Origin: Notolepis coatsorum
Taxonomy: Eukaryota > Chordata > Actinopteri > Aulopiformes > Paralepididae
Length of the DNA: 64,000 nucleotides
Direction: 5' to 3'
Assembly (NCBI GenBank): GCA_963971535.1
Contig: OZ020589.1
Span: forward strand, 74,917,811 to 74,981,810
Part shown: in pieces, positions 31,216-32,220 of the stretch
Position numbering within the stretch: the stretch's first letter is position 1
How the letters are laid out: the number at the start of each line of letters is the position of its first letter
Translations under genes and position numbers: made by a program
Notes under the pieces: generated by a model
What the model was told of the DNA's origin: nothing
Seen by the model: only the letters and a program-made list of their open reading frames with translations
Databases searched by the model: none

Positions 31216-31530
31216 TAGATAGATAGGAAACATTGTGCTTCCCTTTTTATTGATTTTTCAGGCATTTGATACTGTGGACCATAATATAATGAAGCATAGG
31301 CTAATTAATGTAGGACTGTCTGACTCTGCTGTTGGCTGGTTCTGTAATCATCTTGCTGACAGGACTCAATGTGTTCAGGCTGATGTTTTATCTGTCCACA
31401 AGGGGGTGCCACAAGGTTCTGTTCTAGGACCATTGTTATTTACAATCTATATCAATAATTTAGGCAAACATTTTCCAGATGCAAACTTTCATTTTTATGC
31501 TGATGACACTGTCATTTACTGTTGTGCTAC

Positions 31531-31790
31531 TGTAACGGAGGTACCGCAGTCTATCCACAGTCACGAGGGACAGTAAGTGAAGTGGCTGTGGACGTTAAGC
31601 GGTACTGCAAGTAAACTCACTCCCCAGAGGCATCCAGACCCAATAGCAAGAAGTGAATTCACCTCTTGGTATAGTGGTCTGTGATGCCGCCAGCGACGCG
31701 GGAGACCGGGGTTCAACTCCCACTCAGGGCGATCCCTTAACAGGGGTTGAATCGAAAAACACAATGCAGAGTAAGATCACACCGGCTACA
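31531..31790 (+). mobile_element. 260-bp TG...CA element with tRNA-Asp-like core
   Basis: Begins TGTAACGGAGGTACCG, ends ACCGGCTACA and is flanked by ctac (31527-31530, 31791-31794). Removing it plus one ctac restores the LINE frame exactly (..CCATTLTKALE). Bases 31659-31730 are tRNA-like: A box TTGGTATAGTGG (31666-31677), anticodon-arm CCGC..GCGG, then ACGCGGGAGACCGGGGTTCA and the B box GGTTCAACTCC (710-720 of 31 kb), best resembling tRNA-Asp. LTR-type ends with a Pol III-type core are unusual: either a TRIM/solo-LTR-like element or a SINE with atypical ends. Confidence 0.65.
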
Positions 31791-32220
31791 CTACTACTTT
31801 GACAAAAGCTCTGGAAAGTTTGCAAAATACGTTTAATGAAATAGAATCCCAACTTCAGCAACTAAAGCTTGTTTTAAATCCGGAAAAAACAAAAATTATG
31901 ATTTTTACTAAATCCAAAACAAAGGTGCCTTGTCTTGCCTCTATACACACATCGCAAGGCATTCCAATTCAGATTGTGTCGACTTTTAAATACCTTGGCT
32001 TTTTACTTGATGACAGCTTGTCTTTTAAACCACACGTTGAAAGCCTGGTCAAGAAGCTAAACGTGAGGTTGGGTTTCTTTTTCAGAAACAAATCGTGCTT
32101 TTCTTTTAATGCAAAGAAGCAACTAGTTGCTGCCACTTTTTTTTACCAGTATTAGATTATGGTGATGTTTTATACATGAATGCCTGTTCCATCTCACTAC
32201 ACATGTTGGACACTGCTTAC

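Follow-up and report, generated by a model that had tools for sequence, protein, structure and literature searches.

The 260-base block at positions 31531 to 31790 of the window (the whole stretch of Notolepis coatsorum DNA analysed here, 64,000 nucleotides of contig OZ020589.1) is a solo LTR of the ordinary sort, from a type of element already known. We consider it very likely (probability about 0.93) that the block was left by recombination between the two LTRs of a Helenus-type TRIM, an element that would be read by RNA polymerase III (Pol III) and copied by Gypsy proteins. Helenus, or TRIMp3, is a TRIM with a tRNA-like promoter sequence in its LTR (Kojima 2024; PMC10886601), and the features found here fit that description, so the kind is not new. 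The block and its immediate setting comprise the following features.

31531..31790, plus strand: solo LTR of a Helenus-type TRIM, subfamily A of this genome (identified by the TG...CA ends, genome matches and LTR role in two-LTR elements)
31527..31530, no strand: left target-site duplication, CTAC (from the sequence)
31791..31794, no strand: right target-site duplication, CTAC (from the sequence)
31223..32152, plus strand: LINE reverse-transcriptase ORF broken by the block (open without the block and one CTAC)

The borders are exact, with CTAC directly at both sides. When the LINE flanks are rejoined with a single CTAC, the frame contains no stops in 222 codons, compared with four stops in 310 codons when the insert is included. 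The first-pass annotation had drawn the same borders, seen that removal of the block restores the LINE frame, and pointed out the TG...CA ends and an internal tRNA-Asp-like core with A and B boxes. All of this held up: the ends are common to the family copies, and the boxes and the core were recovered with a box consensus and a set of comparison tRNAs. Its reading offered either a TRIM or solo-LTR-like family with a captured tRNA promoter, or a new SINE-LTR hybrid; the former largely stands, given the solo LTRs, the two-LTR elements with a primer-binding site (PBS) and polypurine tract (PPT), and the 4-bp duplications, whereas the hybrid is superfluous because the kind was named Helenus in 2024.

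The family is large. Scoring 40 of 1754 first-look candidates gave at least 64 matches to the LTR in its own genome, at 84-100% identity and mostly at 97-99%, and an exact 32-base LTR core occurs at 1768 places genome-wide, with none for the reversed control. Of these places, the first 100 listed, on contig C1, comprise 66 that stand alone, 14 pairs and 2 triples with steps of 276-313 bases, a grouping that misses partner LTRs lacking the exact core. Across the family, solo LTRs, LTR-internal-LTR elements and arrays of up to five LTRs are found. After de-duplication by flanks and exclusion of truncated and locus-edge elements, 64 complete copies were taken from 91 elements (loci L001-L101): 30 solo LTRs, 27 two-LTR, six three-LTR and one five-LTR copy, collected mainly from best-match lists, so that the sample leans towards copies resembling the queries. 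An exact 4-bp duplication flanks 50 of these 64 (21 of 30 solo, 24 of 27 two-LTR, 4 of 6 three-LTR and the single five-LTR copy); in the remaining 14, the duplication differs by one base in 13 cases and by two in one. The 50 exact duplications follow a roughly palindromic pattern (C/T, A/T, T/A, G/A). The copies with shared ends, 4-bp duplications and LTR-internal-LTR arrangement for which the first-pass annotation had proposed a genome search are abundant, and neither differing boundaries nor uniqueness to this locus, which would have spoken against it, was observed.

A full element spans about 570 bases, with two LTRs of about 260 bases separated by a non-coding internal part, which measures 50-53 bases in 59 of 63 cases; an element of this type is too short for the usual protein genes. 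The common internal form is CG-TGGTGCCGTGACCCGGAT-GCCCTGGGTGGAGTGAG-TTTAGGGGGGTGAG. The 18-base PBS, TGGTGCCGTGACCCGGAT, at the start of the internal part is the exact reverse complement of the 3' part of the host tRNA-His, ATCCGGGTCACGGC, followed by A and CCA; these last four bases, the discriminator A and CCA, are presumed for the host tRNA-His. The PPT, TTTAGGGGGGTGAG, ends the internal part immediately before the 3' LTR. The host tRNA-His pattern was found at 346 places genome-wide, and nearly all of the first 100 of these listed belong to a tandem array (G000:C32:84507098-84645026) with steps often of about 850-1300 bases. The human-type tRNA-His PBS pattern, ACANNTGGTGCCGTGACTCGG, which has the wrong T-arm, was found at no place. 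Among the 63 internal parts, 33 have the exact PBS, 25 have two extra bases in it, and five are otherwise altered. The form with two extra bases, TGGTGCC-K-W-TAG-ACCCGGAT (for example, in L004, L049 and L090), occurs in subfamilies A and D. Internal types are mixed inside single arrays in L049 and L090, each of which contains this form together with the exact PBS; arrays could arise by insertion of multimeric RNA or by later recombination or exchange. In L016/L072 (G000:C8 near 162235700), a D-type LTR is paired with an A-type LTR in one element, so that subfamilies either recombine or stand side by side in one array.

The closest known relatives are the fish Helenus families around LTR-11_DR, for which 5575 LTRs have been reported; the likeness is drawn from features and extends to the TRIM plan, tRNA-like LTR, PBS, PPT, 4-bp duplications, tRNA-His primer and arrays (PMC10886601). 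The same text describes PBS and PPT in Helenus, 4-bp duplications in animals, tRNA-His among the vertebrate primers, and tandem arrays. What defines Helenus is found here: two LTRs around a short non-coding internal part with a total length below about 1.3 kb, A and B boxes in the LTR, a PBS right after the 5' LTR, a PPT before the 3' LTR, and 4-bp duplications. Two features of the family, a hairpin over box A and a U5 motif complementary to the anticodon arm of the primer tRNA, were not found described and appear worth testing. Neither these nor a candidate helper were found in the Helenus text of Kojima (PMC10886601), where 'hairpin' and 'palindrom' do not occur in the main text, 'stem-loop' occurs once, in a reference, and 'secondary structure' four times; for the hairpin, this negative covers that text only. 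For the motif, no paper describing such a match in Gypsy or TRIM elements was found by title or start of the abstract.

The promoter-like sequences and the two hairpins examined lie within the LTR as follows.

31540..31606, plus strand: U3 hairpin H1 (stems 31540-31547/31599-31606 and 31552-31564/31582-31594), conserved in sequence, no covariation
31629..31688, plus strand: hairpin or palindrome H2 around GAATTC, kept in four subfamilies with compensatory changes
31662..31721, plus strand: tRNA-Asp-like stretch, by scoring against comparison tRNAs
31667..31677, plus strand: A box TGGTATAGTGG, by consensus match
31710..31720, plus strand: B box GGTTCAACTCC, by consensus match

H1 was discarded as a covarying structure: no pair is changed on both sides, and what remains is conservation. 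H2 consists of 26 pairs, and its 3' arm holds the A box, that is, the A-box half of the tRNA-like stretch. The 60 bases of 31629-31688 fold at -32.5 kcal/mol (z -7.5); the corresponding values are -31.9 (z -5.5) for a subfamily D copy whose core differs to a large extent and -36.6 (z -9.5) for a subfamily C copy. Covariation was assessed in an alignment (A1) of 32 of the 38 cluster representatives, the six carriers of LTR-shortening deletions having been removed by choice. In these 32 LTRs, 90.7% of the cells are paired, against 35-50% in slid controls. Both sides are changed in 7 of the 26 pairs, compared with a mean of 5.0 in shuffles (reached by 3 of 500), and in 33 cells, compared with 14.6 (reached by none of 500); the number of further pair types is not above that of the shuffles, 447 of 500 of which reach it. 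Independent events are few, because the shuffles ignore relatedness and the changes sit in few lineages. In the distant subfamily E copy L122, the hairpin around this GAATTC is weaker (z -3.4), with one shuffle in 200 folding equally well. Deletions in the LTRs of L047, L053, L059 and L061 take out much of the box A palindrome, with just one of the two LTRs affected in L047 and L061, and the palindrome is likely to be unstable after insertion.

The hairpin may keep the transcript from acting as a tRNA precursor; covariation over box A suggests a way for a transcript made from a tRNA promoter to escape tRNA processing. The main rival to this anti-processing role is copying between the arms, by snap-back synthesis at the 5' end of the RNA or by gene conversion at the palindrome, which would renew the match without any selected RNA structure. 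The palindrome centre is 9 bases upstream of box A, close to where Pol III would start, which agrees with arm copying, as do the almost perfect arms in subfamilies B and C, the several copies with deletions within the palindrome, and the confinement of the changes to few lineages. However, the pairing in subfamily D includes several G-U pairs, which are no direct product of copying, and subfamily A, the commonest in the sample, retains mismatches. On balance, we regard arm copying as somewhat less likely than not.

The second feature lies near the end of the LTR.

31760..31769, plus strand: U5 motif, here CACAATGCAG, able to pair with the anticodon arm of host tRNA-His if a single G-U pair is counted; subfamilies B-D have CACAACGCAG

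The 10-base CACAACGCAG is complementary at every base to CUGCGUUGUG, part of the anticodon arm of the host tRNA-His. With G-U pairs allowed, the motif pairs at 10 of 10 positions in 124 of 130 Helenus LTRs, and its commonest variant, CACAATGCAG, keeps the pairing as G-U. The exact 10-mer is absent from both strands of the window; the fetched flanks contain 10 exact matches that by context look like unmasked Helenus LTRs. Beyond typical Helenus, 536 tRNA-His primer sites were collected by requiring a base other than G after the PBS. An exact copy of the motif precedes 56 of these at a distance of 10-40 bases and 357 at 41-71 bases, hence no more than 413 of 536, a few of which are Helenus variants and many of the listed ones members of one family; reversed controls gave none. 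Among 20 sampled tRNA-His sites, one of which is Helenus E, at least 9 of the 10 motif bases occur within 100 bases upstream in 16 and downstream in none; the motif is absent at L103, L105, L111 and L116.

These matches suggest a primer contact in which the motif would pair with the anticodon arm of tRNA-His. Alternatively, the motif could be kept for another reason, such as shared ancestry of the tRNA-His Gypsy LTRs or an integrase or packaging signal, and the anticodon-arm match could be coincidental. In line with coincidence, many of the listed places stem from few families, 25 hand-picked U5 spacers collapse into four groups (under single linkage, which is lenient and chained them), four of the 20 sampled sites lack the motif, and all sites compared are primed by tRNA-His. 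Yet a given 10-mer would find its full complement somewhere in a tRNA of 72 bases by chance about 6 times in 100,000, the 10-mer is constant where the U5 surroundings differ between families, and the G-U of the commonest variant still pairs; a coincidental match seems to us somewhat unlikely. Contacts between retroelement RNA and primer tRNA beyond its 3' end are reported for the A-loop of HIV-1, which touches the tRNA anticodon (PMC1785369), and for the bipartite PBS of Ty3 and Ty1 (PMC5371799), and which primer HIV-1 uses depends in part on complementarity to the anticodon of tRNA-His (PMC1785369). Unlike in those systems, the predicted contact here is a 10-base tRNA-His anticodon-arm match in the U5 of natural Gypsy-like and Helenus elements.

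Combining both features, we tentatively propose, at slightly less than even odds, that Gypsy elements primed by tRNA-His in this genome, and the Helenus elements that parasitize them, contact the primer at a second site, through pairing of CACAACGCAG with the anticodon arm, anticodon included; that Helenus kept this clamp and the PBS while its LTR was otherwise remodelled around a Pol III promoter; and that the promoter hairpin prevents tRNA-like folding and processing of the transcript. If so, primer-tRNA clamping would be what admits a short Pol III RNA to the Gypsy copying machinery. According to Kojima, the upkeep of helper dependence is not known and LTR homology seems unnecessary, and that text reports no pairing potential of the Helenus PBS with the tRNA-like sequence of the LTR (PMC10886601). 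The PBS together with the shared anticodon-arm motif, which occurs many times in this one genome and within several different U5 contexts, is a concrete candidate for the signal by which a helper recognizes a TRIM.

As to the promoter itself, Asp-GTC is the best of nine comparison tRNAs for the representatives of subfamilies A-D, and in each case beats the best of 300 shuffles. By consensus match, A and B boxes are jointly present in 112 of 130 LTRs. ARAGORN reported no tRNA when run over the window with its bacterial setting, nor in the LTRs that represent subfamilies A-D, and the Rfam listing for 31400-31900 at E<=5 includes no tRNA or 5S model; below the gathering score, it contains a tmRNA fragment of 13 bases (E 0.051) and a tRNA-like element of tymovirus type (E 4.6), and a weaker overlapping tRNA match could be masked there because the tmRNA fragment belongs to the same clan as tRNA. 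A recognizable tRNA gene was accordingly rejected, and the block is regarded as tRNA-derived. A run of TTTT is present in just one of the 130 LTRs and, among the 34 complete copies with several LTRs, again in one, compared with a shuffled expectation of 0.54, so that a Pol III transcript could run through the element. From these sequence features, we infer that the family is probably transcribed by Pol III; Kojima lists Pol III transcription as unvalidated for Helenus (PMC10886601). That the element is instead an ordinary Pol II TRIM carrying the tRNA-like stretch as a dead passenger appears improbable. Among the LTRs of subfamily C, 8 of 11 lack a box A that fits a simple consensus, as do 3 of 9 in subfamily B; against the passenger reading stand the joint presence of both boxes in most LTRs, the near invariance of the box B region in alignment A1, the A-box match of different sequence, TGGCGCAGCGG, in subfamily D, and the scarcity of TTTT.

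On the reading that we prefer, that of a Pol III-read Helenus, transcription would start near the tRNA-like box A of the 5' LTR and pass through the whole element. Proteins of a tRNA-His-primed Gypsy element would then copy the RNA, with the 3' 18 bases of tRNA-His paired with the PBS and its anticodon arm with the 10-base U5 motif; the Gypsy integrase would insert the DNA, producing the 4-bp duplication, and LTR-LTR recombination would leave a solo LTR such as the one in the window. A Gypsy-like family represented by L123 (the same place as L118), with 694 first-look candidates in the genome, is suggested by its sequence as the candidate helper. RVT_1 and RNase H matches were obtained in two of its five ORF pieces scanned, with no integrase domain match in the five; the Gypsy label presumes the domain order usual for Gypsy. 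Its LTR, TGTGTAGC...GCTACA, begins at about TGTGTAGCAGAG, although a TG repeat in the left flank makes this start uncertain, and roughly resembles the Helenus TGTAACGGAG...GCTACA; a search for its 3' LTR found none. The U5 reads ACACAACGCAG...GATCAC...GCTACA and is followed by the same PBS as in Helenus. Apart from this PBS and the U5 motif, L123 shares only short terminal stretches with Helenus. A PPT-based search for helpers returned 105 places (control, 2), which were set aside, as those listed end mainly in TGTAACA and look like CpG decay of Helenus itself. Viral and genome contigs scanned for the conserved LTR stretches yielded no match.

Among other systems, the plant TRIM Cassandra likewise combines a Pol III-type promoter in the LTR with LTR-internal-LTR-internal-LTR arrays (PMC7215508, PMC10886601). 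Its LTR, however, is 5S rRNA-like, whereas the one described here is tRNA-like and in an animal host, with no 5S model in the Rfam listing of 31400-31900 given above. tRNA-derived SINEs share the internal A and B boxes. That the block is such a SINE, moved by a LINE and LTR-like in look only, is hardly credible despite the tRNA-like promoter and the high copy number (1768 exact cores): the copies read have no A-rich or simple-repeat tail and no long variable duplications, their TG...CA ends are fixed, 50 of 64 complete copies have exact 4-bp duplications, and the two-LTR copies with PBS and PPT contradict it.

The window contains another LTR-like insert, of 1265 bases, at 501-1765 (TGTAAC...GTAACA), which differs in class from the block by the length of its duplication, the 5-bp CCAAG. 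The resemblance that the first-pass annotation saw between the starts of the two inserts is superficial: BLAST of the LTR over the window with a word size of 7 lists no match in that insert, and kinship was dropped. The subfamily E copy L122 (G000:C1:157465900-157467400) has two LTRs, a CTAG duplication, and the same PBS and U5 motif as the other Helenus copies, with a weaker hairpin. In three of the eight best Helenus copies (L006, L007 and L008), the LTR is interrupted at TTAA near LTR position 207-212, with only one side seen in L008. TTAA is the target of piggyBac-like elements, and the interruptions are as expected for such insertions.
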